Shown piece after piece: positions 14,447-64,000 of a stretch of DNA of 64,000 nt (its first letter is position 1; each line of letters opens with the position of its first letter). The stretch spans positions 186,001 through 250,000 of the IMG/VR virus record IMGVR_UViG_3300011113_000640. The stretch is one strand, 5' to 3'. A program made the position numbers and the translations under genes. The stretch comes from a virus. The notes beneath the pieces were generated by a model. That model was given only the letters and a program-made list of their open reading frames with translations. It was not told the DNA's origin and did not search any database.

Positions 14447-14464
14447 GGACTAATAGTTATCATT

Positions 14465-18091: not shown

Positions 18092-18098
18092 TTGCTTA

Positions 18099-49804: not shown

Positions 49805-50418
49805 TCCAGCCTGGACTTTGTCGCATCGAAGGCTTTGTGAAAATATCTGACCCAAACACGGGTGAAATTTTGGTTGACAAAAAGAATGCCATACATTACG
49901 AGAATATTTCAATTGCCATGGCCGAAACTCTCAGCAACAGAACCAGTGCGCAGGGCGGAGGCTGGATCTATGAAATGGCCTTTGGCAACGGCGGCAGCGC
50001 TGTGGATCCAACTGGTGTAATAACTTATCTACCACCCAACACAACTGGAGCCAATGCCAGTCTTTACAATCAAACTTATCAAAAAGTCGTGGACGACAAT
50101 TCAGCGTCCAACACAGATCCAGCCAACAACTACATGACCGTGGTTCATACTTCGGGTGCGGTTTATACCGATATCATCACCACCTGTTTGCTGGACTACG
50201 GTGAGCCCTTGGGCCAGCAGGCCTTTGACAACAGCACAAATTTCAACGGTGAGTACGTGTTTGATGAACTGGGTCTTAAAGCCTGGAACGGCAGTGCTTC
50301 AAATCTGTTGCTGATCACGCATGTGATTTTCCATCCAGTACAAAAGAGCTTGAATCGCCAGATACAGATAGATTATACCCTGCGTATACAGACACTTACA
50401 AACTTGAGTGCCGCATAA
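49801..50418 (+). CDS. Virion structural protein after gp7-like gene
   Basis: A 205-residue protein with KKNAIHYENISIAMAETLSN, then GGGWIYEMAFGNGGSAVDPT, GVITYLPPNTT and TTCLLDYGEPLGQ. Proteins with this block order are common in T4-like marine phages and prophage-like regions and are generally taken as tail or baseplate components; I cannot place it on a T4 number. No enzymatic motif is present. The N-terminal 28 residues are mirrored by the preceding 47-aa gene. The stop codon lies inside a late box that belongs to the next gene. Confidence 0.6.
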   Translation: MIQPGLCRIEGFVKISDPNTGEILVDKKNAIHYENISIAMAETLSNRTSAQGGGWIYEMAFGNGGSAVDPTGVITYLPPNTTGANASLYNQTYQKVVDDNSASNTDPANNYMTVVHTSGAVYTDIITTCLLDYGEPLGQQAFDNSTNFNGEYVFDELGLKAWNGSASNLLLITHVIFHPVQKSLNRQIQIDYTLRIQTLTNLSAA

Positions 50419-50446
50419 ATATATGCAGATAATAGAGCGATAAATA
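50414..50446 (+). promoter_or_regulatory. Two tandem late promoter boxes before the tail-fibre-like gene
   Basis: CATAAATA (50414-50421, overlapping the previous stop) and GATAAATA (50439-50446) are 25 nt apart. The ATG at 50466 follows, with GGAG (50456-50459) as ribosome site. Doubling suggests strong late expression. Confidence 0.6.
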
Positions 50447-50465
50447 TAGGATAATGGAGTAAACA

Positions 50466-51869
50466 ATGGCATATACAATTAGTCTAACCGATGGCAACGT
50501 GTTTGCTACCATAGCCGACGGCACCATCAACACAGCCAGTTCCATGGTGCTGGTTGGTAGAAACTACGCTGGATACGGACAGTTTTTAGACACTAATTTT
50601 ATACACTTGTTGGAAAATTCCAGCAATACAACAGCACCCGGCGCACCACTTACTGGTCAACTATGGTGGGATTCAGGCAATGGCCTGCTCAAGGTCTACA
50701 ACGGAAGCACATTCAAAACAGTTTCGGCAGCCACGGCCAGCAGTTCAGCTCCCAGCGGTGCCAACAGCGTCGTGGGCGATCTTTGGTATGACACTGTCAA
50801 TGCACAGTTAAATGTCTACACCGGCGCAACTTGGTTGTTGGTAGGTCCACAAAGCACATCAGGACAAGGCACTTCGGGTGCGATCGTTTCCACGGTCACA
50901 GACAATCTCAGTGTGAATCACGTTGTGGTCCAACTCTGGGTCAACAACAGCATTGTGGGCATGATCAGCAAAGATGCCACTTTTGTGCCTGGTACAGCTA
51001 TCGGCGGAGGATGGGGCATACAAGCGGTCAGTCCAGGTATAACCTTGGCCACCACAGTGGGCACACAGACACCATTGTTCAATGGCACAGCCACTGTGGC
51101 TCAAAGTTTGTTGGGATTCAATCCTTCGGCATTCATGCAGACCGGCAACAACACCGGCACCACAGGCACTCTCAGCGTGACCAACAACACTGGTTTGTTT
51201 GTGGGCCTCAACAGCGATTTCCGTGCATTTATTTCGGGCACGCAAGTCAACCTACAGAATCAAACCACCAATGGCAATCTTGTTATTGGTGTATCTAACT
51301 TTGCCAACTCCATACAAGTCAATGGCACAACCGGGGTGGTCACTATTCCAAGCCTGTCATTCTCAGCATTTGGTGACATAACGGTTGGTAATGTTATAAA
51401 TGCCAATGGTAATGGCGTAGGCAACATCGGTAATTCAACAGGCTACTTTAATACTATATTTGCCCAGGCCACTAGTGCCCAGTACGCAGACGTGGCTGAA
51501 AGATTTGCCTCAGACCAAGAATATCCAGCTGGCACTGTGGTGGAACTGGGCGGCACAGCCGAAATTACCAGTAGTAAGCAGGATTTGAGCGATAATGTGT
51601 TTGGAGTCATAAGTACACGTGCAGCCTATCTAATGAACAGTGCAGCAGGAAATGATCAAACTCATCCTCCTGTGGCTATCACAGGCCGTGTGCCAGTTAG
51701 AGTGATTGGCAGTGTTAAAAAGGGAGATAGATTGGTTGGTGCAGGCGGCGGGTTGGCTCGAGCAGCCAAGGCAGGAGAAATTACTGCTTTCAATGTGATT
51801 GGACGAGCATTGCATGACAAATCGGATGATGGACTAGGCTCAATAGAAGCCATTGTAATGATTAAATAG
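50466..51869 (+). CDS. Tail-fibre-like protein with conserved C-terminal domain
   Basis: A 467-residue protein. Residues 1-120 contain LLENSSNTTAPGAPLTGQLW and WDSGNGLLKVYNG, then a second GDLWYDTVNAQLNVYTG unit, short beta repeats typical of phage fibres. The middle (about 130-330) is Asn/Thr/Gly-rich. The C-terminal 130 residues (AQYADVAERFASDQEYPAGT, VVELGGTAEI, RVPVRVIGSVKKGDRLVGAG) form a domain found at the end of many phage tail proteins. It probably lies on a tail fibre or spike and contacts the host or carries other fibres. Two late boxes and a clear ribosome site precede it. Confidence 0.7.
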   Translation: MAYTISLTDGNVFATIADGTINTASSMVLVGRNYAGYGQFLDTNFIHLLENSSNTTAPGAPLTGQLWWDSGNGLLKVYNGSTFKTVSAATASSSAPSGANSVVGDLWYDTVNAQLNVYTGATWLLVGPQSTSGQGTSGAIVSTVTDNLSVNHVVVQLWVNNSIVGMISKDATFVPGTAIGGGWGIQAVSPGITLATTVGTQTPLFNGTATVAQSLLGFNPSAFMQTGNNTGTTGTLSVTNNTGLFVGLNSDFRAFISGTQVNLQNQTTNGNLVIGVSNFANSIQVNGTTGVVTIPSLSFSAFGDITVGNVINANGNGVGNIGNSTGYFNTIFAQATSAQYADVAERFASDQEYPAGTVVELGGTAEITSSKQDLSDNVFGVISTRAAYLMNSAAGNDQTHPPVAITGRVPVRVIGSVKKGDRLVGAGGGLARAAKAGEITAFNVIGRALHDKSDDGLGSIEAIVMIK

Positions 51870-51942
51870 AGGACAAAATCACCCAGCGATCGGCAACGAT
51901 TGCGTTGAGATTGATCAACTAATACAAAGGGAAAAAAGTAAA
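51863..51942 (+). promoter_or_regulatory. Late-type box and structured leader of the 51943 gene
   Basis: TTAAATAG (TAAATA at 51863-51868) overlaps the preceding stop codon. The 73-nt gap holds a 7-bp hairpin with GCAA tetraloop (51886-51892 with 51897-51903, one G-U pair) and a 5-bp hairpin (51904-51908 with 51915-51919). AAGGGA follows before the ATG. Together they look like a structured 5' leader. Confidence 0.4.
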
Positions 51943-52926
51943 ATGACATATTCAGTTGGCGGACTAATAGAAGCAACAGACTATAACGGGTTTGTTAGCA
52001 CCACAGCAAATGCAAATATCAATGCTACCTGGAACAGCACCTATGGCCAAACTGCATTGAGCACTGTCAGCGCCGGCGGGGTAGTAACAGCCACACAATG
52101 GTCCACATTGAACTCGACCATTTCTACCATGGCCAGCCATCAGAATACCACAATTACTAGTAGGACCAACCCAACTGCAGGTAATACCATCACCATATTG
52201 AACAACGTCAACACCGACATTGGCAGTTGCTATACACGACGTTTTTTTGCAGCTGGCAGTGGTGCTCAATTCACAGGTTGGACCGGAACTGCCAGCCAGA
52301 CCAGCAAGGTTGGAGACACCAATACCAACTGGACAATCACGTTCACAGACACCATTACCTTTGCCAACGCCACGGCCTGTACCAACTTTTTTGGCGCCGG
52401 TGGCTTGATCAAGACTGAATTCAGCAAGACCAGCACCGGTGAAGATGCCGATCCAGAGTGGAACAACCTGGTCAATTCCATCTGCGGAGACGTGTATTTT
52501 TCTTCTGATGCATCCAGCAAGACCATAGCAGGCACGTCATACACAGGAACCACGGTCATTGGTGGCTCAGGAACACCATCCACTTTGGCCACTGGCACAG
52601 GATTCAATCAACTGTCTACCGGCGTGCCGGTAACCATCTACAAACAGTTTGATACGGCTTATACCTATACCACCAACTATGTTGAAGTCATTGTTACCAA
52701 AACTTCAGCCACAGTGTTGACCTTTACCACAAACTGGTTCTCGGCGGCACGAAGCACATCTGGAAGCAGCCGAAGCATTTCAGGCGGTACAGCCACAACA
52801 GGCATCACGTTTGGAACAGCTCCTACCACGGTGGTTACATATTTCCCACCATCAACATCTTTCTTGACCAACACCTGGGGTGCACCCACAGTGGCCAGCA
52901 CAGTCAGCGCAACACCTTACAGTTAA
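51943..52926 (+). CDS. Putative tail or fibre structural protein
   Basis: A 327-residue Thr/Ser/Asn-rich protein with few charged residues, as in fibre or spike proteins. It starts TYSVGGLIEATDYNGFVSTT, which resembles the opening of virion proteins in marine phages. Later stretches such as TITFTDTITFANATACTNFF, FFGAGGLIKTEFSKT and ITFGTAPTTVVTYFPPSTSF suggest repeated beta strands. It has no recognisable enzyme motif. It is the last gene of the plus-strand tail operon, ahead of a strong terminator, and has its own structured leader. Its partner is probably the preceding tail-fibre-like protein. Confidence 0.6.
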   Translation: MTYSVGGLIEATDYNGFVSTTANANINATWNSTYGQTALSTVSAGGVVTATQWSTLNSTISTMASHQNTTITSRTNPTAGNTITILNNVNTDIGSCYTRRFFAAGSGAQFTGWTGTASQTSKVGDTNTNWTITFTDTITFANATACTNFFGAGGLIKTEFSKTSTGEDADPEWNNLVNSICGDVYFSSDASSKTIAGTSYTGTTVIGGSGTPSTLATGTGFNQLSTGVPVTIYKQFDTAYTYTTNYVEVIVTKTSATVLTFTTNWFSAARSTSGSSRSISGGTATTGITFGTAPTTVVTYFPPSTSFLTNTWGAPTVASTVSATPYS

Positions 52927-52945: not shown

Positions 52946-52965
52946 AAAGGGGCTTCGGCCCCTTT
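52946..52965 (+). terminator. Rho-independent terminator after the tail operon
   Basis: An 8-bp stem (52946-52953 with 52958-52965) is closed by a stable TTCG tetraloop. A TTTTT run follows at 52977-52981. It ends the late tail operon 20 nt after the last stop codon and separates it from the radical SAM/glycosyltransferase operon. Confidence 0.85.
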
Positions 52966-52991
52966 ACCTTATCTAGTTTTTGCTGTATAAT
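52963..52991 (+). promoter_or_regulatory. Sigma70-type promoter of the right-hand operon
   Basis: TTTACC (52963-52968) and a perfect TATAAT (52986-52991) are 17 bp apart. The expected start site is at or next to the ATG at 52998, giving a leaderless message. A host-type promoter here, in place of a NATAAATA box, suggests early expression of the downstream operon. Confidence 0.55.
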
Positions 52992-52997
52992 ATCTAC

Positions 52998-53300
52998 ATG
53001 GATACCAACGAACTCATCTCCCACAGCCGCGCCCGTTTCGATCATCACCAAGCACGCCAGGTATTGAAAGAAAAATATCAAGCTAAATTTGTTTTTGCCC
53101 ATGCTGGCGGCATGTGGCAAGCTGGCCCAGAATTATTGACCTTGTTGAAATGTTGTTCAGGCCCAGTGGTCATTTTGGACCTGTATGAAACACCTGTGCA
53201 AGTCAACGCCGAAGAATTTTATGAACAAGTTTTACAACGCTGGCAAGAACAACTCAATGCCTGGTTGGTAGAATATCAGGAAATGAACAAAAATAGATGA
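52998..53300 (+). CDS. Small conserved phage protein, first gene of the right-hand operon
   Basis: A 100-residue protein starting MDTNELISHSRARFDHHQAR, with FAHAGGMWQAGPELLTLL and IVLDLYETPVQVN-type sequence (here VVILDLYETPVQVNAEEF) and a C-terminal RWQEQLNAWLVEYQE. Homologous small proteins occur in many T4-like phages without known function. The start at 52998 is preferred to an upstream TTG because the -10 hexamer lies inside that extension. The stop overlaps the next gene (ATGA). Confidence 0.7.
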   Translation: MDTNELISHSRARFDHHQARQVLKEKYQAKFVFAHAGGMWQAGPELLTLLKCCSGPVVILDLYETPVQVNAEEFYEQVLQRWQEQLNAWLVEYQEMNKNR

Positions 53301-54103
53301 CACGCGGTGTACTGATTTTTGCTTTCAACAACGAGCATGTGGACTATTTGAGCATGGCCGCTTGGTCAGCTCAACGAATTCACCGACACCTTGATTTACC
53401 TGTGTGTGTAGTAACCGACAGGACCGACGCCTGTGACAACAAACATTTTGATCGAGTAGTGCTAGTAGATCTGCCCAGCTCGGGCCGTCCACGCTATTTC
53501 AAAGACTACAAAAAAGTAGCAGTGTGGCACAACACCAATCGAGCCAATGCTTATGAATTGTCACCCTGGGACCATACTTTGGTCTTGGATGCGGACTATG
53601 TGGTGGCCTCCGATCAATTGGCCTGTTTGTTTGATGTTGACCAAGATTTTCTAGCCCATCGATGGGCGCATGATGTGTCCGGTCAAGGGGCATTCTACGA
53701 CAACAACTGGTTTGGCATGTATCGCATGCCCATGAGCTGGGCCACGGTCATGTGTTTCCAACGCAGTAAAAAAGCTCAATTCATATTTGACACCATGCAA
53801 ATGATACGCGACAACTGGGATCATTACCGACATCTTTATCACATTGGGGAAAACAGCTATCGCAACGATTACTCAATGAGCATAGCTCAAAATCTAGTGG
53901 ATGGACACACGCTGTCATCGCCACACATACCCTGGAGTCTGGTCACAGTTACTCCAGAAACCAAGCTGGAACAAGTTGATCAAGATACATACAAAATCAC
54001 CTATGAAACCGCAGAATCAAAAATCAAATGGATGTATTTGAAACAAGATTTCCATGCCATGGGCAAACAGGCCTTGGAGACCATAATTGCCGGTAACAGC
54101 TGA
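53297..54103 (+). CDS. Glycosyltransferase-like protein (GT-A type), copy 1
   Basis: A 268-residue protein with a Rossmann-like N terminus (GVLIFAFNNEHVDYLSMAAW, LPVCVVTD) and a central TLVLDADYVV near residue 95 that fits the DxD metal/nucleotide-sugar motif. It continues with FDVDQDFLAHRWAHDV, then DNNWFGMYRMPMSWATVMCF. The overall order fits small GT-A glycosyltransferases. The sugar and acceptor are unknown. It overlaps its upstream neighbour (ATGA) and the next gene by 17 nt. With the next two glycosyltransferase-like proteins it forms the front part of the radical SAM operon. Confidence 0.6.
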   Translation: MTRGVLIFAFNNEHVDYLSMAAWSAQRIHRHLDLPVCVVTDRTDACDNKHFDRVVLVDLPSSGRPRYFKDYKKVAVWHNTNRANAYELSPWDHTLVLDADYVVASDQLACLFDVDQDFLAHRWAHDVSGQGAFYDNNWFGMYRMPMSWATVMCFQRSKKAQFIFDTMQMIRDNWDHYRHLYHIGENSYRNDYSMSIAQNLVDGHTLSSPHIPWSLVTVTPETKLEQVDQDTYKITYETAESKIKWMYLKQDFHAMGKQALETIIAGNS

Positions 54104-54827
54104 ACGCGGCTATGTCATACCGGCCATAAATTCAGGCCAGGTTGATTTTGTGGCCTGTGCCGAACAGTTAGCAGACAGTCTACGCCAATATCACCCCGAC
54201 GCCAACATAACCATACTCACAAAAGAAATGTTGCCATACGGTGATCAGGGTGGTTGGGCCAATGATTGGCAGTGTTTTCAAGCCAGCCCTTACCGACAGA
54301 CCATCAAACTGGAAGCCGACATGTTGGTAACCAGTCCTGTTGATCATTGGTGGACCTTGTTTGAAAACCGCGATGTTGTGATCAGTCAAGGTTGCAGAAA
54401 TTTTTACAACGAATCTGCCACATCAAGAAAATACCGACAGTTGTTTGACAACAACCAACTGCCCGATGTTTACAATGCTATAACCTACTGGCGTCTCAGT
54501 GCTACAGCGCAAGAATTTTTTTCGCGGGTGCGAGAGATATTTGAAAACTGGGAACGATTCAAATGTCTTTTAAAATTCCCCGATGAAGCGCCCAGCACTG
54601 ATGTGGTCTATGCCATGGTAGCAGTGATCATGGGACCAGAACGAGTGATGTTGCCGCAAGGACTAGGGCCGTCGATAACGCACATGAAACAGTCAATCAT
54701 TCCTACGCAAACATCTGACTGGACCAAAGAACTGGTCTGGGAAAATACAGATCCAGGCTTGCGTGTACAGACTGTGGCACAGTCGGGATTGTTTCACTAT
54801 CACATCAAAGATTGGAGAGCAACATGA
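54087..54827 (+). CDS. Glycosyltransferase-like protein (GT-A type), copy 2
   Basis: A 246-residue protein. The start is a TTG at 54087 with GGAG (54076-54079) 7 nt upstream, inside the preceding gene; no good ATG lies nearby. The N terminus (GYVIPAINSGQVDFVACAEQ, ANITILTKEM) and YRQTIKLEADMLVTSPVDHW (E-A-D at the metal-motif position) follow the GT-A pattern of its neighbour. A C-terminal GPSITHMKQ/LFHYHIKDW segment supplies the usual late His. It is probably a sugar transferase, with unknown donor. The stop overlaps the next ATG. Confidence 0.55.
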   Translation: MPVTAERGYVIPAINSGQVDFVACAEQLADSLRQYHPDANITILTKEMLPYGDQGGWANDWQCFQASPYRQTIKLEADMLVTSPVDHWWTLFENRDVVISQGCRNFYNESATSRKYRQLFDNNQLPDVYNAITYWRLSATAQEFFSRVREIFENWERFKCLLKFPDEAPSTDVVYAMVAVIMGPERVMLPQGLGPSITHMKQSIIPTQTSDWTKELVWENTDPGLRVQTVAQSGLFHYHIKDWRAT

Positions 54828-55096
54828 GTGATGATTCGCAACGTATCAAACACAGCCGACGCATCAGCAGAACACGTGATGCAGAATTGCGCCAGGTCAG
54901 AATAGCCCGGGCCCATGGTATCACTGTAAAAGAATATCATAGATATGCCAAACATCACGCCATGAACTGTGGCCGTCCAAATTGTTTGCTTTGCACAAAT
55001 CCCCGTCGCACCTGGAAAGAAAAAACCATACAGGAAAAAAGTTTCGAGGGGCAGATACGTGCCGATCAGAGAAAACCCGACGACCATGATGACTGA
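54824..55096 (+). CDS. Small basic protein with Cys/His cluster
   Basis: A 90-residue protein: a basic N-terminal half (KHSRRISRTRDAELRQVRIA), then KHHAMNCGRPNCLLCTNPRR, which has His and three Cys (H..C(4)C(2)C) suited to bind one zinc, then a polar tail. The start overlaps the previous stop (ATGA) and GGAGAG lies just upstream. A nucleic-acid or protein-binding adaptor is plausible. Similar small proteins occur in T4-like phages without assigned role. It overlaps the next gene by 11 nt. Confidence 0.65.
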   Translation: MSDDSQRIKHSRRISRTRDAELRQVRIARAHGITVKEYHRYAKHHAMNCGRPNCLLCTNPRRTWKEKTIQEKSFEGQIRADQRKPDDHDD

Positions 55097-55442
55097 ACAA
55101 GAGTTTTTAGAGATATGGCTTAGTCAAACCGTTACTCAAGTTGAAATTGAATATCGACTCTACTATGATGCGCAAGGATGGCCCTTATTTTACAGCACCG
55201 AACAGGTAGAAGGTAATTACATTGTTGTTGACCGACAAACATACCTAGACAGCCCCAAGCACATTCGAATTGTCGAAGGTAAAATCAAACGCATCAAAGT
55301 TTTATTTGGAAAAAAATTAGTACCTGCGGAACAGGGACAATCCTGTGATTCAGCAGATGTGTGTGTGATAGTCGCAGATCAGTTGTCCAGTAAAAAATGG
55401 GCCATAAAACACGAGGAACCCGAGGAAGATGAAGCAAGTTGA
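55086..55442 (+). CDS. Unknown small protein in the radical SAM operon
   Basis: A 118-residue protein starting MMTEQEFLEIWLSQT (a second ATG at 55089 is equally possible). It has a beta-rich centre (EIEYRLYYDAQGWPLFYSTE, YIVVDRQTYL) and an acidic end (EEPEEDEAS). I do not recognise a family. It overlaps both neighbours (11 nt upstream and 14 nt downstream), so it is translated with the operon. It could be a chaperone or substrate-recognition partner for the flanking enzymes, but that is only position-based. Confidence 0.55.
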   Translation: MMTEQEFLEIWLSQTVTQVEIEYRLYYDAQGWPLFYSTEQVEGNYIVVDRQTYLDSPKHIRIVEGKIKRIKVLFGKKLVPAEQGQSCDSADVCVIVADQLSSKKWAIKHEEPEEDEAS

Positions 55443-56358
55443 CATAGCAGATTTAGATTGCATATATTTGACCTATGATGAGCCACAGAAAGAGGAATTC
55501 TGGGTGCGAATCAAGAACATGATTCCCTGGGCCAAACGAGTAGATGGAGTCCAAGGAAGTGACGCTGCACACAAAGCAGCCGGCGAGGCCAGCGACACTG
55601 AACGTTTCATATTGATCGATGGCGACAACATACCCAATGAACGTTTTTTTAACCTGACCTTGGAATTGCCAGATGGCGAATGGGAAAATGCTGTATTCCG
55701 CTGGCGGGCGAGAAATCATGTCAATGGCCTTATGTATGGCAATGGTGGAATCAGTTCGTGGACTAGAACTCATGTGCGTAACATGCGCACCCACGAAGCT
55801 TCCGAAGGAGCCACCGAAACCGAAGTAGAATTTTGTTTTCATCCACTATATTGGCCCATGCACGATTGTTACAGTACAACATATCCCAATGGCAGTGCCT
55901 TCCATGCCTGGCGTGCTGGATTCCGTGAAGGTGTCAAGATGTGCTTGAATTATGGAGCCAGACCCACAGTGTCTGCTTTCCGTGAGCGAGTGCATCAACG
56001 CAATCTTGATCACTTGACCATATGGCACAATGTGGGTCGTGATGTAGAACATGGAATCTGGGCCATAGCCGGCAGCAGGATGGGCACTTACATGACCATG
56101 ATCACGCCGCAGTGGGATCATCGCATGGTGCAAGACTTCGCAGAATTACAAAAACTTTGGGACACAGTCAAAGATTCGAACCCAGAAATCGTATGTGGTC
56201 GTGTGGCCGAAGATCTTGCTACACAGTTGAATCTGCCCATGACGGTAATGCAGGCTCCAGAAAGTGTTTTTTTCAAACAACACTATAGGTCAAACTGGCA
56301 CAATCAAGGTGTCATGGTTAGAGAAATGGATGTGATTCGGAGGCAAGAAGGGTGGTAA
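55429..56358 (+). CDS. Glycosyltransferase-like protein, copy 3
   Basis: A 309-residue protein. The N terminus has DCIYLTYDEPQKEEFWVRIK, NMIPWAKRVDGVQGSDAAHK, then FILIDGDNIPNERFFNL, where DGD is the likely metal motif of a GT-A fold. RWRARNHVNGLMYGNGGISS and HPLYWPMHDCYSTTYPNG follow as likely acceptor-side loops. This set of blocks occurs in glycosyltransferase-like proteins of marine phages. It is the third of three in a row and ends in the GTG start of the first radical SAM gene, so the two enzymes are made together. Confidence 0.6.
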   Translation: MKQVDIADLDCIYLTYDEPQKEEFWVRIKNMIPWAKRVDGVQGSDAAHKAAGEASDTERFILIDGDNIPNERFFNLTLELPDGEWENAVFRWRARNHVNGLMYGNGGISSWTRTHVRNMRTHEASEGATETEVEFCFHPLYWPMHDCYSTTYPNGSAFHAWRAGFREGVKMCLNYGARPTVSAFRERVHQRNLDHLTIWHNVGRDVEHGIWAIAGSRMGTYMTMITPQWDHRMVQDFAELQKLWDTVKDSNPEIVCGRVAEDLATQLNLPMTVMQAPESVFFKQHYRSNWHNQGVMVREMDVIRRQEGW

Positions 56359-57770
56359 ACAACAAAGGTGACGAAGTTACCAAAGAGTTTAAAAGTGTTT
56401 TTTTAAACAGCGCAGAACAAATGCAACAGGCTCTAGGCAAAGGTTTGTGCCTGGCCAAGTGGAAACAGGTCAGCCTGCACTTACCCACAGGATTAAATAA
56501 CAGTTGCTATCATCCACCCTTGCACGAAATACCCGCTGAATTATTGGCAGATAATCCCAGCGCCTTACACAATACTCCATACAAAAAACAACAAAGAAAG
56601 ATCATGCTCAAGCATGAAAGACCCACGGAATGTGGATACTGCTGGGCCATGGAGGATAATGGCAAACTCAGCGATCGTCATTATAGATCAGGCGAGCCTT
56701 GGGCCGCTAAAGATTTTGATAGTATTATAAATTCAACCGGAGATGAGGATGTTGTACCTAGTTATGTTGAAGTTAACTTTAATCACGCTTGTAATTTGGC
56801 ATGTAGCTACTGTAGTCCTCAATTTAGTTCAACCTGGCAACAAGAAATGGATCAGCATGGCGCTTATCCTACTAGCACTAGACACAACGATCCTAGTCAT
56901 TTTGTTGGCCGCAACCGTCCTATCCCCGTTAGAGAAGATAATCCTTATGTAGATGCCTTCTGGTCTTGGTGGCCCGCACTGTATCCAGAACTCAAACATT
57001 TCCGCATGACCGGCGGCGAGCCTATGTTGGACAAAAATACCTATCGTGTGTTTGATTATGTGTTGGCCAATCCCAAACCAGACTTACATTTAAATGTAAC
57101 CAGTAACTTCAGCGTGGATGAGAAGTCGTGGCAGAAGTATTTAGGCTATGTCAAAGAGCTATGTGAAGGCGAACGGATCGAACACTTCATGCAGTACATT
57201 AGTCTCGATAGCTTTGGACCTCAAGCCGAATACATCAGACACGGCTTGGATTTTGATTTGCTGTGGGATCGTGTGAATCAATTCTTGACAGAGATCCCGG
57301 GCCGTAACAGCGTAACATTTATTGTGACCATGAACAATTTAAGTGTCACAGGCTTACCACATTTGTTTGCTGGCATACTGGGACTTAGAAAGATCTATTC
57401 AACAACCTATCAACGAGTATGGTTTGACACACCAGTGCTACGTCAACCCACCTGGCAAAGTCTGCAACTGTTGCCAGAAAGCTATGTGGAGCAACTGGAA
57501 CATCTCTGGGCCTGGATGATACGACAGATCGAAACTGAATCAACCCGCTTCCAAGGATTCAAAGACTATGAGATAGCACGCCTGGATCGTGACATAGCCT
57601 GGATGCGCGACGGACAGAAACTAGATTCTGCATACGTCAAACAAAACAAGGCAGATTTTTATAAATTCTTTGCCGAGCATGATCGCCGTCGTGGCACTGA
57701 CTTTCTACGGACTTTTCCTGAAATGAAGACCTGGTGGGCAGAATGTGAGTATCATGCTAGGCAATCGTAA
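56352..57770 (+). CDS. Radical SAM protein with N-terminal Cys-rich (twitch-like) region, copy 1
   Basis: A 472-residue protein. The GTG start at 56352 is backed by GGAGG (56339-56343) 8 nt upstream. Residues 1-135 hold a Cys/His-rich domain: NSCYHPPLHEIP, ALHNTPYKKQQRKIML, RPTECGYCWAMED. The radical SAM motif CNLACSYC is at C147/C151/C154 and FRMTGGEPMLD follows. The order, auxiliary cluster first and radical SAM barrel second, is that of proteins annotated as twitch domain-containing radical SAM proteins. The closest relative here is the gene at 58932. The substrate is unknown. It overlaps the glycosyltransferase-like gene before it and the TEK-motif gene after it. Confidence 0.88.
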   Translation: MVNNKGDEVTKEFKSVFLNSAEQMQQALGKGLCLAKWKQVSLHLPTGLNNSCYHPPLHEIPAELLADNPSALHNTPYKKQQRKIMLKHERPTECGYCWAMEDNGKLSDRHYRSGEPWAAKDFDSIINSTGDEDVVPSYVEVNFNHACNLACSYCSPQFSSTWQQEMDQHGAYPTSTRHNDPSHFVGRNRPIPVREDNPYVDAFWSWWPALYPELKHFRMTGGEPMLDKNTYRVFDYVLANPKPDLHLNVTSNFSVDEKSWQKYLGYVKELCEGERIEHFMQYISLDSFGPQAEYIRHGLDFDLLWDRVNQFLTEIPGRNSVTFIVTMNNLSVTGLPHLFAGILGLRKIYSTTYQRVWFDTPVLRQPTWQSLQLLPESYVEQLEHLWAWMIRQIETESTRFQGFKDYEIARLDRDIAWMRDGQKLDSAYVKQNKADFYKFFAEHDRRRGTDFLRTFPEMKTWWAECEYHARQS

Positions 57771-58935
57771 ATTAATCATAGACGATCACTCCGAGGTTTA
57801 TAGAGAACTGTGGCCTTGGGCCGACGGCGAGTTTTGGGATATCACCCAACACCAGATTGTTCCAGGTGCAGTTTACATATTTTGTAGAGAGCATGTCAAC
57901 AAATACAATTATGAAATACAACAGCTGGCTCGCAGTGACCAGGTAACTGTGGTCATAGAAAATGCTGCCGAAGGTTCCGAAACTCTGGTAACCTGGTGTT
58001 TTATCAAAGGGTTAGTGCCACTGATTGAACAAGGCAAGATCCTGCTCATAGGCGGCGGGGACATGGATCCTGACAAGTGGCCCTACATGAGCTACGAATA
58101 TTTCCTGCCAAAGATCTTTGATTTTGATGAAAATGTCGAAGCCGGCGCCAGGCTAGATAAATATTTCAGTCAAACAGTTAAACCTTATAAATTTTTGTTT
58201 TTGAATGGCCGACTGCGAGCACATAGGAAATATCTACAGGAAAGATTCCGGACCACTGGCGTTTTAGAACAAAGCCTGTGGACCAACCTTGACACAGATC
58301 TTGCCTTGATCAAAAGCGTACCACAACAACGTTGGCAAAATTTCAACAATCTCAAATCCGTAAAATTGGAATATTTGCACAATGGCGTTGACATGATAGA
58401 AGCGCCAACATCCTTGAAACTGCTATCCGAGTCCTATGAGGCACCCAGATTCAGGACCAATCTTGACAAGATACCCAGTGGTGGAAATGTCAAACGCAAC
58501 TTGTTTGACAATGCCTGGGGAGATGCCACAGTAGATGGTAACGCCTACAGAGACACCTATTTCAGCCTGGTCACCGAGACAGTGTTTAACTATCCCTACA
58601 GTTTTAGGACAGAAAAGATCTGGAAACCCATGGCTGTAGGGCATCCTTGGATAGCAGTGGCTAACACAGGTTTCTATAGAGATCTACACCACATGGGATT
58701 CAAAACATTTGCACATGTCTTAGATGAATCATTTGACTCAATCGCAGACAACCAATCGCGTATTGAAAGAATAGCACAGGTCGTGGAAGACTTATGTCGC
58801 CAAGATCTTGCAAGTTTCTATCAAGAATGCTATAATGTATGTAAATACAATCAACAGCATTATGCGGAATACAGACACCGTGTTCCGCAAGAACTTCCGC
58901 AACAGTTCCAACGATTTATAGAAAAATATCAATGA
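57745..58935 (+). CDS. TEK-motif protein, glycosyltransferase-like (copy 2)
   Basis: A 396-residue paralogue of the 18099-19256 product. The shared C-terminal blocks are VTETVFNYPYSFRTEKIWKP, a P-W-I-A-V strand, and MGFKTFAHVLDESFDS followed by R. The N-terminal half differs but both have a FLFLNGRLRAHRKYLQERF or equivalent turn (here near residue 155; AFLCMNGEARSHRMYTL in copy 1). The xTEK region recalls GT10-type fucosyltransferases. GTG (57745) and ATG (57754) are alternative starts. It is sandwiched between two radical SAM genes and overlaps both, repeating the pairing seen on the left side. Confidence 0.55.
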   Translation: MSIMLGNRKLIIDDHSEVYRELWPWADGEFWDITQHQIVPGAVYIFCREHVNKYNYEIQQLARSDQVTVVIENAAEGSETLVTWCFIKGLVPLIEQGKILLIGGGDMDPDKWPYMSYEYFLPKIFDFDENVEAGARLDKYFSQTVKPYKFLFLNGRLRAHRKYLQERFRTTGVLEQSLWTNLDTDLALIKSVPQQRWQNFNNLKSVKLEYLHNGVDMIEAPTSLKLLSESYEAPRFRTNLDKIPSGGNVKRNLFDNAWGDATVDGNAYRDTYFSLVTETVFNYPYSFRTEKIWKPMAVGHPWIAVANTGFYRDLHHMGFKTFAHVLDESFDSIADNQSRIERIAQVVEDLCRQDLASFYQECYNVCKYNQQHYAEYRHRVPQELPQQFQRFIEKYQ

Positions 58936-60269
58936 CGGATTTAGAATTTCGTAGACAACACCTTGACACCAAAAGTGCCAGCTTCTGTGGCGCCAAATGG
59001 TACAATGCCACCATATGGTTGGGATCTGGTCAGACCACCAGTTGTCATCATCCACCAGCTCATGCCATAGACACAGAAGCTATCAAAACCAATCCCAAGG
59101 CCATACATAATACCCCACAAAAGAAACAAGATCGAAATCAAATGCAACAGGGACAACGTCCTGCCGGATGTGAATACTGTTGGAAGATTGAAGACATGGG
59201 AGTGGATGCCATCAGTGATCGTGTGTATAAAAGCAAAATATATTCCATAGAGGCCTTGGATGAAGCATACAACAAAGACTCTCAAGAGGACATGAATCTT
59301 CGTACTCTTGAAATAGCGTTTGACCGCACTTGTCAATTTGCTTGTAGTTATTGCAATCCTGCCTTTAGTTCAACCTGGGTCAAGGATATCAAAAACAACG
59401 GTGCTTACACAAATCTTGTCAGTGATGGTCGCAATCATTTCACACACAAACACGACAGTGCTCAGTTGTATCAATTTGGCGAAACCAATCCTTACGTAGA
59501 AGCCTTCTTTGCTTGGTGGGAGTCTGACCTACACAAGACCTTGCAGGAGTTGAGAATCACTGGAGGAGAACCTACCATGAGTGGCGAGCTGTGGAAGTTG
59601 ATTGACTGGTTCAAATCCAACAAAGGAAAAAGCTCAACTCGGTTGGCCATCAACAGTAACTTGGGCATGGATAGACCAAAGCTGTTTGAATTTAGAGATG
59701 CTTTGAAGGACATTCCGCACGTGGAAATCTACACCAGCATGGAAGCGGTAGGAACGCAGGCTGAATACATACGAGACGGCCTGGACTATGATCTATGGAT
59801 GCACAACGTACAAGAACTTCTTGAACACGATCACATACGTGCAGTCCACTGTATGGCTACCATCAATGCCCTGTGCCTGGACAGTTTGGATGAATTTTTA
59901 GATCAATGGATACGATTGAAAAAGGTGTATGGCCGCGAAAGAGTGAACTACACATTGAATATATTACGTTTTCCCAGTTTTCAAAGTCCGTTGGTGTTGC
60001 CAAAAAATCTTTTGGAACTCTACAGTGATAAGTTAACCCAGTGGTTGGATCAACATCGTGATCAACCATACATGCATGAACATGAAATCAATCACATGAC
60101 TCGTTTGATCGAGTATCTAAATCGTGTAAAAAAACCACACAGCGAAGCATTTGAAATGCCCAAACTTTTCAATGACTTTAAACAATTTTACACACAATAC
60201 GATCAACGTCGCAACAAAATTTTTGTTGCGACATTTCCTCGCTTGGCAGAATGGTATCAAACACTATGA
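58932..60269 (+). CDS. Radical SAM protein with N-terminal Cys-rich (twitch-like) region, copy 2
   Basis: A 445-residue paralogue of copy 1. The N-terminal region has TSCHHPPAHAID, KAIHNTPQKKQDRNQM and RPAGCEYCWKIED. The radical SAM motif is CQFACSYC (C134/C138/C141), with LRITGGEPTMS after it. The barrel end RDKIFVATFP-type sequence here reads RRNKIFVATFPRL and matches RRGTDFLRTFPEM in copy 1. Start and stop both overlap neighbours by ATGA. Two non-identical paralogues separated by a TEK-motif gene point to an enzyme set instead of a simple duplication, since the sequences have diverged widely. Confidence 0.88.
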   Translation: MTDLEFRRQHLDTKSASFCGAKWYNATIWLGSGQTTSCHHPPAHAIDTEAIKTNPKAIHNTPQKKQDRNQMQQGQRPAGCEYCWKIEDMGVDAISDRVYKSKIYSIEALDEAYNKDSQEDMNLRTLEIAFDRTCQFACSYCNPAFSSTWVKDIKNNGAYTNLVSDGRNHFTHKHDSAQLYQFGETNPYVEAFFAWWESDLHKTLQELRITGGEPTMSGELWKLIDWFKSNKGKSSTRLAINSNLGMDRPKLFEFRDALKDIPHVEIYTSMEAVGTQAEYIRDGLDYDLWMHNVQELLEHDHIRAVHCMATINALCLDSLDEFLDQWIRLKKVYGRERVNYTLNILRFPSFQSPLVLPKNLLELYSDKLTQWLDQHRDQPYMHEHEINHMTRLIEYLNRVKKPHSEAFEMPKLFNDFKQFYTQYDQRRNKIFVATFPRLAEWYQTL

Positions 60270-61582
60270 CAAAAATTTTAGGCAAATACAACTGGAATGA
60301 TCGAGTACCTAGTTATATTCCGTTGGAGCAGTTGACAGACGTTCAGCGTCATAGGCTCATAGACAGTGAAACATTTTGCATGTTGCCTTGGATACACTTG
60401 CATGCCTGGCCCGATGGACGTGCATATCCCTGTTGCATGGGTCGAGCCCAGCATTCTGTAGGCAACTTCAAAGAAAAGCCCATGCGTGAAATCTGGAATG
60501 ATCAACCCATGCGCGAGATGCGCTTAAACATGCTGGAAGATAAACCTTGTGCCGAGTGCGGTCACTGTTATGAACAAGAGAAATCTGGATTTGCCAGCAT
60601 GAGAAACAATTCAAACAAGAATTTTGGACAACACATTCAAAAAATAGATGATACCCGTGCCGACGGCAGTCTGCCTGATTTTAAACTACACTATTGGGAC
60701 GTGCGATTTAGCAATATCTGTCAACTGAAGTGCCGCAGCTGTGGAAGCATATTCAGCAGTCGCTGGTATGACGATGATGTCAAACTCTGGGGCAAAGAGC
60801 TAAGACCTCGTGTGAGCTTTGCTGGACGACACGAAGAGGATGTATGGGAGCAGATGCAGGAACATGTTCCCCACTTGGACCAGATATACTTTGCTGGCGG
60901 TGAGCCCTTGATCATGGAGGAACATAATCGCATACTTAAACTGCTGATTGAAAAAGGCAACACCAAGGTGCATTTGATCTACAATACCAATCTCAATGAA
61001 CTGCGATACAAACGTGAATCGGTGTTGGACCTGTGGAAGCATTTTCCTAATATTTGTGTAGCGGCCAGTTTAGATGACATGGGAGCTCGGGCTGAAATCA
61101 TACGCAGCGGTACTGATTGGGACAAAGTAGAACAAAACATTAGAGATTTAAAACGAGAATGTCCGCATATAGATTTCATGATCAGTCCCACCCTGAGTGT
61201 CATGAACATCTGGAACTTTACACGATTTCATCGTTACATGGTCGAGTCTGGATTTATTGAAGCCAAAGATTTCAACTTGAATATCTTACAAGGGCCCAAG
61301 GAATATAGAATAGACTTGTTACCTCAGGATATAAAGTTTCGTTTCAAGCAAGAATTTGAACAACATATCGAATGGTTACGCCCCTTGGATACAATACAGC
61401 GAGCAACTGGCGGATTTGAAGCTGCCATACAGTTCATGATGGCACAAGATAACAGTTATTTGCTTGGCGAGTTTTGGGAAACCACCAGCGATATGGATTG
61501 GAGTCGTGATGAACGTTTGATCTCGGCTGTTCCTGAACTGGCCGAAATATTACAATACAAACCAGCACACACACGAGTATGA
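60266..61582 (+). CDS. Radical SAM protein with N-terminal SPASM/twitch-like region, copy 3
   Basis: A 438-residue protein starting at the ATG that overlaps the previous stop. The N-terminal cluster region has FCMLPWIHLHAWPDGRAYPC followed by CMGRAQ, GNFKEKPMREIWND, and CAECGHCYEQE, the same elements that normally form a C-terminal SPASM/twitch domain. The radical SAM motif is CQLKCRSC (C152/C156/C159), followed by SIFSSRW and IYFAGGEPLIM. A C-terminal helical tail of about 80 residues follows. It is one of three tandem proteins of this subtype with the next two genes. The substrate is unknown. Confidence 0.88.
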   Translation: MTKILGKYNWNDRVPSYIPLEQLTDVQRHRLIDSETFCMLPWIHLHAWPDGRAYPCCMGRAQHSVGNFKEKPMREIWNDQPMREMRLNMLEDKPCAECGHCYEQEKSGFASMRNNSNKNFGQHIQKIDDTRADGSLPDFKLHYWDVRFSNICQLKCRSCGSIFSSRWYDDDVKLWGKELRPRVSFAGRHEEDVWEQMQEHVPHLDQIYFAGGEPLIMEEHNRILKLLIEKGNTKVHLIYNTNLNELRYKRESVLDLWKHFPNICVAASLDDMGARAEIIRSGTDWDKVEQNIRDLKRECPHIDFMISPTLSVMNIWNFTRFHRYMVESGFIEAKDFNLNILQGPKEYRIDLLPQDIKFRFKQEFEQHIEWLRPLDTIQRATGGFEAAIQFMMAQDNSYLLGEFWETTSDMDWSRDERLISAVPELAEILQYKPAHTRV

Positions 61583-62799
61583 AACTACCACACGAAAAAT
61601 TCTGTGTACTACCTTGGGTCAGCCTGGAAGCCAGTCCCATTGGCACGGTCAGACCCTGTTGCTTGGCCGATGATGAAATTGTGGACAACAACGGAGAAAA
61701 ATTCAATCTTGCCGCAGCCAATTTTGCCAACATACAAAACAGCAACGACATGCGCAGTTTACGTCAACAATTTTTGGATGGACAACAACCACAGACCTGT
61801 AGAAAATGCTGGCGTGAAGAGCGCAGTGGCCGCACCAGTAAACGTCAGCATACCTTGGACAGATTAAAACACATCTTGGCCGACCATGATTCGTGGACAG
61901 CAGATGCCAAGCCATTGATATTTTTAGATCTCAAACTGGGCAATATCTGCAATCTCAAATGCCGAATCTGTGGTAGTTGGAGTTCCAGTACATTTGCCAC
62001 CGAAGAGTTACAATGGCTCAAACGCGGTGAAGACAAAAAACAAAGCCATCACTATCAAATGTTGCGACAAGGTGCTTGGCCCAGAGAAAATCAGCAGTTT
62101 TGGTCAGAGATAGATCAGATAGTGAATCAAATACGATACATAGAATTCACTGGTGGCGAACCTTTCATGATACAAGAACACTTTGACATGTTGCAAGGGT
62201 TGATAGATCGTGGCATAGCCCATCAGGTAGAAATACACTACAACACCAATGGAACCCAATGGCCAGAACAAGCCGAAGCGATATGGCGTCATTTCAAAAC
62301 TGTTGAGATTGCGTTCAGCATTGATGATGTGGGTGCTAGATTTGAATATCAACGGACCAATGCAGTTTGGGATGAAGTAGTGGCCAACATTGAAAAATTT
62401 AAACAGTTGCGTCAACGTCACAGCAACATAAAACTACAAGCGTGCATCACAGTCAATGTTTTCAATGTATATTATTTGGAATCAGTGGCCTTATGGGTTG
62501 CACAGCAAGGTTTTAATTTCGTTTATTGGAACATGTTGCATGATGCATATTATTTTAGCATAGCCACACTGCCAGAATCAGCCAAGATTGGAATAGCCAA
62601 AAAATTACAACAGGCACAGGTACCAGAATCAATCCGACGAGAGTTTGAAAAAATAATTGAATTTATGAACAACGGTGCTGGTCTTGATGGCAAGTTATTG
62701 AAAATTAGAACCACAGATTTTGACTACAAACGCGGTCAAAACTTGGCCGTGGTTGCACCTGAATATGCTGCCCTGATAGATTATGCCGGCCCCAATTAA
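61579..62799 (+). CDS. Radical SAM protein with N-terminal SPASM/twitch-like region, copy 4
   Basis: A 406-residue protein with FCVLPWVSLEASPIGTVRPC followed by CLADD, then CRKCWREERSG, in the N-terminal region. The radical SAM motif is CNLKCRIC (C124/C128/C131), with GSWSSSTFA next to it and IEFTGGEPFMI after. It has YNTNGTQWPE where copy 3 has YNTNLNEL. Its start overlaps the copy 3 stop (ATGA), and its end overlaps the next gene by 17 nt. Same fold order as copies 3 and 5. Confidence 0.88.
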   Translation: MKLPHEKFCVLPWVSLEASPIGTVRPCCLADDEIVDNNGEKFNLAAANFANIQNSNDMRSLRQQFLDGQQPQTCRKCWREERSGRTSKRQHTLDRLKHILADHDSWTADAKPLIFLDLKLGNICNLKCRICGSWSSSTFATEELQWLKRGEDKKQSHHYQMLRQGAWPRENQQFWSEIDQIVNQIRYIEFTGGEPFMIQEHFDMLQGLIDRGIAHQVEIHYNTNGTQWPEQAEAIWRHFKTVEIAFSIDDVGARFEYQRTNAVWDEVVANIEKFKQLRQRHSNIKLQACITVNVFNVYYLESVALWVAQQGFNFVYWNMLHDAYYFSIATLPESAKIGIAKKLQQAQVPESIRREFEKIIEFMNNGAGLDGKLLKIRTTDFDYKRGQNLAVVAPEYAALIDYAGPN

Positions 62800-64000
62800 T
62801 CGTCCTGAAACCCTGTGCATGGCCCCATGGACACACACATATCTCAGTCCACAAACCGAAAGACGCATGTGCTGTGCCAGCCGAGAACCCGCACAAAACT
62901 TCGAACAGTATATAGACACAGCTGCAGGTTCTGGAAAATATACACCTGTGAGCCTGGATGAGCACTGGAACAATCCTCACATACGAAGTGTGCGACTGAG
63001 GATGATGCAGGGAGAAATTTTGCCCGAGTGTGAAGTATGTAACAATAAGTTATTGAACACTGACGTATACAGAGACTACTTCAATCGATTATTTGGTCAC
63101 AAATATGAAGAGTGCATGCGTGCCACCGATCGCTATGGGTTCACCAAAGTAAGACCAGTCAGTTGGGATTATAGGTTCAGTAATCTATGTAACTTCAAAT
63201 GTCGCATGTGTGGAGACATGCTGAGCAGTGCCTGGGAAAGTGAACAACGACAGCACAATATGATTGACTGGTCAAATCCAAAAAATACATGGATGCGACC
63301 CGAGGTACGAGAAAAGATTTCAGCTTATCAAGATTCGCAGATTGAGGCCGAATTCGCTTTGGCGGTAGAGCAACATCGTGTGGAAGAAGTATACTGGGTG
63401 GGTGGTGAACCACTCATGTACGAACAACACTGGCGTTATATGCAACGTATTATTGAACTTGGAGATGGACCACGTGTGTATGCCAGATACAACACCAATC
63501 TCAGTAGGGTAGATTATCGCGGAACAAATCTTTATCGTGATATTCTGGCACACATACGTGATTGGCAAATCTGTGCAAGCCTGGATGGCACTGGTGCTAC
63601 GGGCGAATATATAAGGACAGGGTTGGATTATGTTGCATGGTTAGAGAATTTCAAACAAGGGCTAGAAATTACACATCATCGCAGACAGATGCGCATTGAT
63701 TTCACGTTGACATTGCCTGGCCTGTTTGAAGTTGTAAATATCCAGAGACTGGCCGATGAGTTAAATGTAGACATACTGGCCAAAGTAATATTTAGTTTTA
63801 CTCCAGACATTGTAATGAGTCCCTTGGCATTGCCCAGACCTGTTTTAGAGAGAGTGGTTGATGAACTTGCTGACCAAATACCCAACGGAGCACTCCGAGA
63901 TGTGCTAAATCAACTCAAACAACGACCGACCTTTGCCGAACAATGGCCAGATTCTTATCAGGCAGGACTTGCAAAAGGCAAGGCTCGTGTGCTAAAATTA
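62783..64000 (+). CDS. Radical SAM protein, copy 5 (partial, runs off the right edge)
   Basis: Open from the ATG at 62783 to the last base, 406 codons with no stop, so the C terminus is outside the window. The N-terminal region has LCMAPWTHTYLSPQTERRMC followed by CASRE, and CEVCNNK. The radical SAM motif is CNFKCRMC (C136/C140/C143) and VYWVGGEPLMY follows. YARYNTNLSRVDY and ICASLDGTGATGEYIRTG match the SAM-binding half of copies 3 and 4. It overlaps the end of copy 4 by 17 nt. It is the fifth radical SAM gene in this operon; whether more follow cannot be seen. Confidence 0.87.
   Translation, partial: MPAPINRPETLCMAPWTHTYLSPQTERRMCCASREPAQNFEQYIDTAAGSGKYTPVSLDEHWNNPHIRSVRLRMMQGEILPECEVCNNKLLNTDVYRDYFNRLFGHKYEECMRATDRYGFTKVRPVSWDYRFSNLCNFKCRMCGDMLSSAWESEQRQHNMIDWSNPKNTWMRPEVREKISAYQDSQIEAEFALAVEQHRVEEVYWVGGEPLMYEQHWRYMQRIIELGDGPRVYARYNTNLSRVDYRGTNLYRDILAHIRDWQICASLDGTGATGEYIRTGLDYVAWLENFKQGLEITHHRRQMRIDFTLTLPGLFEVVNIQRLADELNVDILAKVIFSFTPDIVMSPLALPRPVLERVVDELADQIPNGALRDVLNQLKQRPTFAEQWPDSYQAGLAKGKARVLKL

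Follow-up and report, generated by a model that had tools for sequence, protein, structure and literature searches.

Several T4-like cyanophages, namely P-SSM2, S-SM2 and S-SSM7, carry large clusters of sugar or LPS-type genes, which are described as present in the larger genomes and proximal to tRNAs (PMC3037559, PMC2984593). Their function is unproven, although they have been suggested to alter the host surface, and the question of whether they do anything or are mere filler was left open (PMC3037559). Radical SAM enzymes with SPASM or twitch domains are mostly peptide maturases, but there is a precedent for a twitch enzyme acting on an aminocyclitol, namely the dehydrogenase BtrN of butirosin biosynthesis (PMC9012708). 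Carbamoyltransferases of the TobZ/NodU type and amidinotransferases of the StrB type are likewise used on aminocyclitols and aminosugars. The NCBIfam family N_Twi_rSAM (NF033640; twitch domain-containing radical SAM protein) is named after its domains, with no reaction in its name.

We analyzed a 64,000-nucleotide stretch of viral DNA (hereafter the window; positions 186,001 to 250,000 of the IMG/VR record IMGVR_UViG_3300011113_000640). A group of giant phages known mainly from metagenomes, to which this virus belongs, carries next to its tail genes a nearly never-lost set of five different radical enzymes (R1-R5) together with putative sugar-handling enzymes, which probably build and decorate an unusual surface sugar, something phages were not known to do with this kind of chemistry. 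No paper describing such an operon was found in the open-access literature searched, and searches for radical SAM proteins in connection with jumbo phages, carbamoyltransferases and glycosyltransferases gave nothing relevant.

Gene content and boundaries of the operon

The original prediction, of a phage operon with overlapping genes that encode five radical SAM proteins, three glycosyltransferase-like proteins and a TEK-motif protein, proved to be real. The ORFs, their order and their overlaps are as it described (Table 1); neighbors overlap by 4–26 nt, and the same overlaps recur in relatives, e.g. R3 and R4 overlap by exactly 4 nt in 49 loci. R1-R5 all match the N_Twi_rSAM model along its whole length, far above the curated cut-off of 170 bits, whereas the next-best families score far below their own cut-offs. 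The CxxxCxxC and GGEP motifs are present in all five window proteins. These proteins are characterized by an N-terminal cysteine cluster of the twitch/SPASM-like type that precedes the CxxxCxxC radical SAM core: four or five N-terminal cysteines together with CxxxCxxC are invariant in all five ortholog groups of 58–68 sequences (98% in R3), and SPASM matches were recovered N-terminally in R3-R5.

Three corrections are nevertheless required. First, the operon is larger than originally described: it begins at the gene o1, behind its own terminator and sigma70-type promoter, and continues beyond the window, where the end of R5 is followed by a 368-aa protein and a carbamoyltransferase that extends to position 252,669 of the genome, and which face an amidinotransferase. 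The carbamoyltransferase contains both the Carbam_trans_N (PF02543, 122 bits) and Carbam_trans_C (PF16861, 167 bits) domains of the NodU/TobZ type. The amidinotransferase shows similarity along the protein, including the C-terminal Cys motif and the HxD motif, with profile matches to 1jdw/2jdx in three stretches and to 1bwd; it matches AGAT, inosamine-phosphate amidinotransferase and SxtG structures with E-values down to 3.5e-18, though its substrate remains a matter of inference. A fold search with the 368-aa protein recovered no PDB match, and only uncharacterized phage proteins. The T4 late promoter sequence TATAAATA is absent at the operon, with a single copy in the window on the other strand. 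Second, none of the three proteins labeled glycosyltransferase-like (GTa, GTb and GTc), nor the TEK protein, matches a glycosyltransferase family in Pfam, NCBIfam or the PDB by sequence, and the label rests only on conserved DxD-like motifs and a weak fold hint. GTa and GTb are tandem paralogs that share an invariant [DE]AD motif, whereas GTc has only a weak hint of a GT-A fold. Third, the record as a whole holds 17 radical SAM matches, with 8 genes over the N_Twi_rSAM cut-off. The load in one operon had been considered not to be a described system; while it is unusual, it is best compared with the phage LPS-type gene clusters (PMC3037559).

Table 1. Features of the operon and its upstream flank, in window coordinates
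Position	Strand	Feature	Supporting observations
49801..52926	+	Tail/fibre genes up205, up467 (Peptidase_G2-like) and up327	Outside the operon; used as unbiased marker
52946..52965	+	Intrinsic-terminator hairpin AAAGGGGC-TTCG-GCCCCTTT closing the tail-gene transcript	Perfect arm >=7 bp in 73/81 relatives against 3% in shuffles; compensatory changes, covariation score 0.306 against 0.101 shuffled (0/500)
52963..52991	+	Sigma70-type promoter: TTTACC (-35), 17 nt, TATAAT (-10) ending 6 nt before the ATG of o1; apparently leaderless transcript	-10 with >=5/6 match 5–7 nt before ATG in 79/81 loci (3% in shuffles); -35 with >=4/6 match in 74
52998..53300	+	o1, 100 aa, unknown	In 18 of 29 loci where covered; ATGA overlap with GTa in 16 of 18
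53297..54103	+	GTa, 268 aa, putative GT-A glycosyltransferase (invariant D98-A-D100)	39/39 loci; motif invariant in 21; no Pfam family
54087..54827	+	GTb, 246 aa, paralog of GTa (invariant E76-A-D78)	42/42 loci; hhalign GTa-GTb E 4.8e-17; phrog_1903 (unknown function) E 2e-6
54824..55096	+	o94, Cys-rich small protein (NCGRPxCxLCxNPRR), variable presence	tblastn match in 35 of 106 loci
55089..55442	+	o117, small protein (starts MTEQEFLEIW), unknown	tblastn match in 106 of 106 loci
55429..56358	+	GTc, 309 aa, putative GT-A-like protein (invariant DGDN)	51/52 loci; 77% mean column identity; AlphaFold pLDDT 68; Foldseek 2p72 (PBCV-1 capsid glycosyltransferase) prob 0.93, E 0.02
56352..57770	+	R1, N_Twi_rSAM radical SAM protein, 472 aa	314 bits; 59/59 loci; C33, C52, C94, C97 and C147, C151, C154 invariant
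57745..58935	+	TEK protein, 396 aa, putative transferase (invariant FRTEKI and NGR motifs)	57/60 loci; TEK motif invariant in 25 aligned homologs; no family or PDB match
58932..60269	+	R2, N_Twi_rSAM, 445 aa	314.5 bits; 63/63 loci
60251..61582	+	R3, N_Twi_rSAM, 443 aa; two allelic types among relatives	402.6 bits; 67/67 loci; two subclades
61579..62799	+	R4, N_Twi_rSAM, 406 aa	344 bits; query gene of the neighborhood survey
62783..64000	+	R5, N_Twi_rSAM, 435 aa; cut by the window edge, ends at genome 250,090	282.6 bits on the full protein; 66/66 loci

Conservation of the gene set in related phages

To determine whether these genes form a functional unit or a chance accumulation, we examined the features that had been named beforehand as capable of refuting the pathway, namely sporadic occurrence, broken frames and changed motifs. 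In a neighborhood survey of 67 non-redundant relatives starting from R4, R1-R5, the 368-aa protein and the carbamoyltransferase are present wherever the region is covered (59/59 to 67/67), and the set is collinear in 63 of the 67 loci. As a survey starting from one of the operon genes might be biased, it was repeated from a neighboring virion gene, and 37 of the 39 loci that were long enough have R1. One relative (locus L177) keeps GTc but lacks the rest. In complete copies from relatives the CxxxCxxC and GGEP motifs are both present in all of R1 (57), R2 (60), R4 (67) and R5 (63), and in 63 and 64 of 64 R3. Frames are intact, and dN/dS is about 0.06–0.15, indicating purifying selection. Each of R1-R5 forms its own ancient clade, so the five steps are not redundant. 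The locus does take up extra genes at insertion hot spots, and stuffer DNA without a joint function has been raised for phage LPS clusters (PMC3037559); however, near-total retention across deep divergence of intact, constrained and non-redundant paralogs makes gene accumulation highly unlikely here. The set is so conserved, collinear and constrained that it must be used, and its compact form with a defined promoter makes the question left open for cyanophages testable.

At least 552 stretches in IMG/VR encode an R4 relative, suggesting that this phage group appears there at least in the hundreds. It thereby supplies dozens of natural variants of five radical SAM enzymes of unknown reaction, and several conserved protein families without any Pfam or PDB match. 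The search for bacterial orthologs of R4 recovered one lone gene in a Bacteriovoracaceae assembly, which is not in a similar operon. A betaproteobacterial host is a guess from TorF- and TctC-like genes.

Contextual evidence for the predicted biochemical role

The interpretation originally offered, namely a phage-encoded biosynthetic or modification pathway that might build an unusual sugar and attach it to virion, envelope or host molecules, is partly supported. That the operon encodes a biosynthetic or modification pathway is well supported, whereas the proposal that its product is an unusual sugar attached to a surface is supported by gene context only. Pfam searches with ten inserted ORFs, picked by eye, recovered NDP-sugar epimerase/dehydratase, UDP-glucose/GDP-mannose dehydrogenase, GHMP kinase, PfkB-family kinase (HldE-like by eye), FkbM methyltransferase, Stf0 sulfotransferase, DegT aminotransferase and APS-kinase-like domains. 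The record itself carries an RfbH above the NCBIfam cut-off, a second DegT plus a weak third, and four epimerase/dehydratase genes, with one DegT/epimerase pair lying just beyond the operon; no CMP-sugar synthetase (PF02348) was found in it. Independent clusters provide comparable associations. The marine virus AG-345-D19 has an amidinotransferase, two SGNH-like proteins (identified by eye), a carbamoyltransferase 51% identical and an N_Twi-like radical SAM protein on 8 kb. Vibrio phage K566 has a four-rSAM cluster beside a transferase similar to lipopolysaccharide 3-alpha-galactosyltransferase, PagP and an LpxC-like gene, and cyanophage S-SCSM2R has its amidinotransferase next to KdsA and KdsB. 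These associations point to surface-glycan chemistry of the LPS type.

Taken together, these observations suggest, with moderate confidence, that the operon encodes a glycan-building and glycan-tailoring pathway that the phage installs in the infected cell. In this view GTa, GTb, GTc and the TEK protein would assemble or extend a short saccharide in the host cytoplasm, and the five non-redundant twitch-type enzymes would carry out distinct radical steps on it or on its precursor (for example dehydrogenation, epimerization or deoxygenation). The carbamoyltransferase and the facing amidinotransferase would cap hydroxyl and amino groups, while nucleotide sugars would come from the host and from the phage's own dehydratase, DegT and RfbH genes, and swappable cassettes (sulfotransferase, methyltransferase, SGNH-like, epimerase and sugar kinases) would vary the decoration. 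The acceptor is most likely a host surface glycan of LPS type, which might change what other phages or grazers see. Our analysis directly establishes the gene set, its co-occurrence, the conserved promoter sequence, the intact motifs, the purifying selection and the absence of predicted membrane segments, whereas the sugar substrate, the order of steps, the acceptor, any change in a surface polysaccharide and the benefit to the phage are inferred. Against this proposal, no transferase of the operon has a recognized family, the operon contains no flippase, polymerase or ligase, most characterized SPASM enzymes act on peptides, and R1-R5 have no characterized close homolog, the best PDB hit of R4 being the peptide enzyme SkfB (E 0.006); in addition, L177 keeps GTc but lacks the rest. 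A more far-reaching version of it can be held only tentatively: the five N-twitch enzymes might act in sequence, with the 368-aa protein of unmatched fold and the unassigned transferases, in a previously unknown multi-step radical pathway that makes a surface modification with chemistry not known from any phage and is a core trait of an abundant jumbo-phage clade.

The same pathway might instead build a glycan that is attached to tail-fibre or capsid proteins of the phage itself. The operon lies directly behind the tail-fibre genes in the relatives, all its products are predicted to be soluble, which would fit a cytoplasmic protein acceptor, and the best, albeit weak, glycosyltransferase fold hint for GTc is to the PBCV-1 capsid enzyme. 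However, the terminator and promoter separate the operon from the tail transcript, and lipid A/Kdo genes accompany the related clusters in isolates, making the virion a second and less likely choice of acceptor.

The main rival with a different chemistry is radical modification of a peptide or protein, in which R1-R5 would be RiPP-like maturases that cross-link, epimerize or otherwise alter a virion or host protein that the transferases glycosylate. SPASM/twitch enzymes are mostly peptide maturases, the N-terminal cysteine domain matches SPASM in R3-R5, and the 368-aa protein, which has no PDB fold match, could bind a peptide. Nevertheless, among the small ORFs surveyed, which excluded those under 60 aa, no universally conserved Cys-rich precursor was found: o94 is present in only a minority of loci, and o117, though universal, does not look like a precursor. 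Further, no RiPP recognition domain was reported by Pfam or NCBIfam, and the inserted cassettes are sugar enzymes. This reading is considered unlikely.

Phages also use glycosyltransferases and carbamoyl groups on nucleobases, and the record has QueE-like and QueD-like genes elsewhere, which raises the possibility of DNA or RNA hypermodification. However, no thymidylate-synthase/hydroxymethylase family (PF00303) was detected in the 320-kb record, which may be incomplete, and the neighbors are of the sugar-nucleotide and LPS type, making this alternative very improbable.

Comparison with described systems

Like the clusters of P-SSM2, S-SM2 and S-SSM7, the locus combines a large set of genes, including predicted sugar-tailoring enzymes, in a big T4-like phage, and carbamoyltransferases are also present in such phages. 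It differs from them in being a nearly invariant operon with its own promoter next to the tail genes, and in containing five radical SAM enzymes and several families unknown to Pfam. Its carbamoyltransferase, amidinotransferase and inserted sugar-nucleotide enzymes match recognized families, unlike its core transferases. With respect to N_Twi_rSAM, the unusual aspect is the presence of five distinct, ancient paralogs in one operon. The combination of a twitch radical SAM enzyme with carbamoyl and amidino transfer is similar to the tool set represented by BtrN, TobZ/NodU and StrB-type enzymes; however, the twitch-like domain is N-terminal in the phage proteins and C-terminal in BtrN, and no sequence-level orthology was shown. 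The cluster of Vibrio phage K566, an isolated 255-kb phage, and of its close relative K567 likewise has N_Twi-type radical SAM proteins in tandem with unknown proteins, and a convergent radical SAM protein and transferase. It shares only about 23–25% identity with the present set, has no annotated carbamoyltransferase and no match to the 368-aa or TEK proteins detectable by hhalign, and lies beside the PagP/LpxC-like genes.

Composition and conservation of the operon

The observation in the original prediction, that five radical SAM genes lie together in one phage operon, holds. The assignment of the phage as T4-like is right, and the term jumbo can be added, as the major head protein matches phrog_138 and is about 66% identical to those of jumbo T4-like phages such as PA5oct, Paride and Vibrio phage 2.275.O. 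The single operon runs in the order o1, GTa, GTb, o94, o117, GTc, R1, TEK, R2, R3, R4 and R5, where R1-R5 are the radical SAM proteins, GTa, GTb, GTc and TEK are putative transferases, and o1, o94 and o117 are small proteins. Past the window edge it continues with a 368-aa protein (o368) and a carbamoyltransferase, and facing it lie a sixth N_Twi_rSAM gene, an amidinotransferase (o339) and o370. R1-R5 score 282-403 bits against the NF033640 (N_Twi_rSAM) profile, which has a cut-off of 170 bits, and the whole record has eight such genes over this cut-off. The open reading frames (ORFs) in this analysis were called mechanically.

Features discussed in the text; window positions refer to bases 186,001-250,000 of the 320,541-base IMG/VR virus record
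Feature	Location	Strand	Description
Operon start (o1)	window 52,998		first gene of the operon, which runs rightwards
Upstream region	window 52,963-52,998		TATAAT exactly 6 nt before the ATG
R3	window 60,251-61,582		radical SAM protein; two allelic types in relatives
o368	genome 250,011-251,117		368-aa protein
Carbamoyltransferase	genome 251,203-252,669		NodU/TobZ type
Sixth N_Twi_rSAM	genome, from 252,662		faces the operon
DegT/epimerase pair	record, about 257.8-259.8 kb		sugar enzymes
RfbH and other sugar genes	record, about 284-296 kb		RfbH, dTDP-glucose-dehydratase-like genes, split transketolase, sugar dehydrogenase
Radical SAM group	window 14,018-21,406	-	three further radical SAM proteins around an SMC/RecN-like protein, with a metallophosphatase and a SegE-type GIY-YIG endonuclease next to them
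Other gene starts with TATAAT	window 22,209 and 18,091	-	TATAAT exactly 6 nt before ATG
Long ORF	window 34,883-49,648		4,921 aa, between the baseplate genes and the fibre genes
QueE-like gene	L262:4481-5353	-	only the N-terminal part matches
QueD-like gene	L262:14466-14912	-	assigned by eye
TorF-family putative porin	L263:8495-9232	-	146.9 bits
TctC-like secreted protein	L263:1092-2003	-	assigned by eye
Vibrio phage K566 cluster (L252)	K566 record 160,041-172,827		four N_Twi-type radical SAM genes with unknown proteins

To investigate whether this gene set is a chance or sporadic association, we used R4 as bait, and found 130 IMG/VR stretches that encode a close relative and at least 552 with an R4 alignment. 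In 67 non-redundant loci, with each gene counted only where its region lies inside the locus, the set comprises GTa in 39/39, GTb in 42/42, GTc in 51/52, R1 in 59/59, TEK in 57/60, R2 in 63/63, R3 in 67/67, R4 in 67/67 (the bait), R5 in 66/66, o368 in 62/62, the carbamoyltransferase in 59/59, o339 in 45/45 and o370 in 41/41. Of these loci 63 of 67 are collinear, whereas in the four exceptions the best TEK copy is placed between R4 and R5. Because R4 had served as the bait, the survey was repeated from the virion gene up205, which lies upstream of the operon. Among the 66 non-redundant loci recovered, those with enough downstream sequence hold GTa in 55/56, GTb in 54/55, GTc in 47/48 and R1 in 37/39. 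Of the exceptions, the locus L213 fills its length with inserted genes, while L177, a relative by its virion genes, lacks the block and keeps only an o94-like gene and a diverged GTc (49%) behind the fibre gene, and could represent either a natural comparator or a rearranged contig. Both surveys keep the 80 most similar loci and hence describe one clade; near-identical records may be left out. Within it the gene set is neither a chance nor a sporadic association.

Sequence constraint and the predicted promoter

The median dN/dS is 0.065-0.154 for the operon genes and 0.062 for o339, although these values derive from few unsaturated pairs (1-36 per gene, with a single pair for R3). The CxxxCxxC and GGEP motifs are intact in practically all copies, and four or five N-terminal cysteines and the three core cysteines are invariant in each ortholog group, with R3 at 98%. 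In a maximum-likelihood tree R1, R2, R3, R4 and R5 each fall in one clade (98-100% of bootstrap trees), while the paralogues of the window share only 23-35% identity. Five different, ancient and non-redundant enzymes are therefore kept together. R3 exists in relatives as two allelic types, about 80% and 48% identical to the window protein, which do not follow the grouping of its neighbours, suggesting exchange.

Between the last tail gene and o1 there is a hairpin followed by the arrangement TTTAC(C/T)-17 nt-TATAAT-6 nt-ATG. In 81 sequences the -10 box lies 5-7 nt before the start codon in 79 (in 57 of them at exactly 6 nt), against 3% in shuffled sequences, and a hairpin arm of at least 7 bp is present in 73. 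The hairpin additionally shows compensatory changes. These observations indicate that the operon is separated from the tail genes, and, as an inference from consensus sequences alone, that it is probably read by the host sigma70 polymerase as a leaderless message. The same spacing of TATAAT and ATG recurs at several other genes of this phage, suggesting that leaderless sigma70-type promoters are common in it.

Predicted functions of the products and their gene context

The carbamoyltransferase is 51% identical to that of a marine single-cell virus and about 30% identical to cyanophage copies. The o339 protein is an amidinotransferase related to AGAT, inosamine-phosphate amidinotransferase and SxtG. 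GTa and GTb are paralogues with an invariant [DE]AD motif, whereas GTc is highly conserved, contains a DGDN motif and shows only a weak match to the GT-A fold. TEK is the most variable core protein, and many of the inserted ORFs are paralogues of it or of o370. The o368 protein yields a confident structural model (pLDDT 83), for which a fold search found no match in the PDB, but ten matches among uncharacterised phage proteins. No core protein has a predicted membrane segment, and none of 263 inserted ORFs is a multi-span membrane protein by a simple hydropathy test.

The gene context points to sugars. Ten inserted ORFs, chosen by eye, were scanned against Pfam and include an NDP-sugar epimerase/dehydratase, a UDP-glucose/GDP-mannose dehydrogenase, a GHMP kinase, a PfkB kinase, an FkbM methyltransferase, an Stf0 sulfotransferase, a DegT aminotransferase, an APS-kinase-like protein, a DUF6071 protein with an SGNH-like start, and a weak match to the arginine-deiminase family. 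The record itself adds the two groups of sugar genes listed in the table, of which the RfbH scores over its cut-off. Related tool sets occur in marine virus AG-345-D19, in Vibrio phage K566, where the cluster lies beside PagP and an LpxC-like gene, and in cyanophage S-SCSM2R with KdsA/KdsB. As K566 is an isolated 255-kb phage, it offers a cultivable model. The phage of the window also encodes the QueE-like and QueD-like genes, which are possibly part of a 7-deazaguanine DNA modification, while a betaproteobacterial host for it is suggested only by the TorF- and TctC-like genes.

Interpretation and comparison with known phage clusters

A glycan pathway with radical tailoring is the reading that uses most of these facts, and the interpretation in the original prediction, a phage-encoded biosynthetic or modification pathway that might build and attach an unusual sugar, is partly supported. 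The composition of the operon, the co-occurrence of its genes, the promoter sequence, and the integrity and constraint of the genes are established by the analysis, whereas it is inferred that the substrate is a sugar, that the acceptor is more likely a host surface glycan than the virion, and that the gain is altered recognition. Twitch enzymes can act on an aminocyclitol (BtrN) and on GTP (MoaA) (PMC9012708), as well as on peptides (SkfB, PMC6231123). Modification of a peptide or protein is the main alternative, because most characterised SPASM enzymes do this and the only PDB similarity is to SkfB, at E 0.006. We consider the glycan reading somewhat more likely than not; this estimate covers either acceptor, and hence overlaps with the variant in which the virion is the acceptor, which by itself appears doubtful.

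An invariant operon with five radical SAM enzymes was not found in the literature searched. Phage LPS-type gene clusters are already known (PMC3037559, PMC2984593), and their function was left open there, with stuffer DNA named as one option. We regard the present operon as a putative variant of such clusters, which differs from those described in its near-invariant set of genes and its five radical SAM enzymes.
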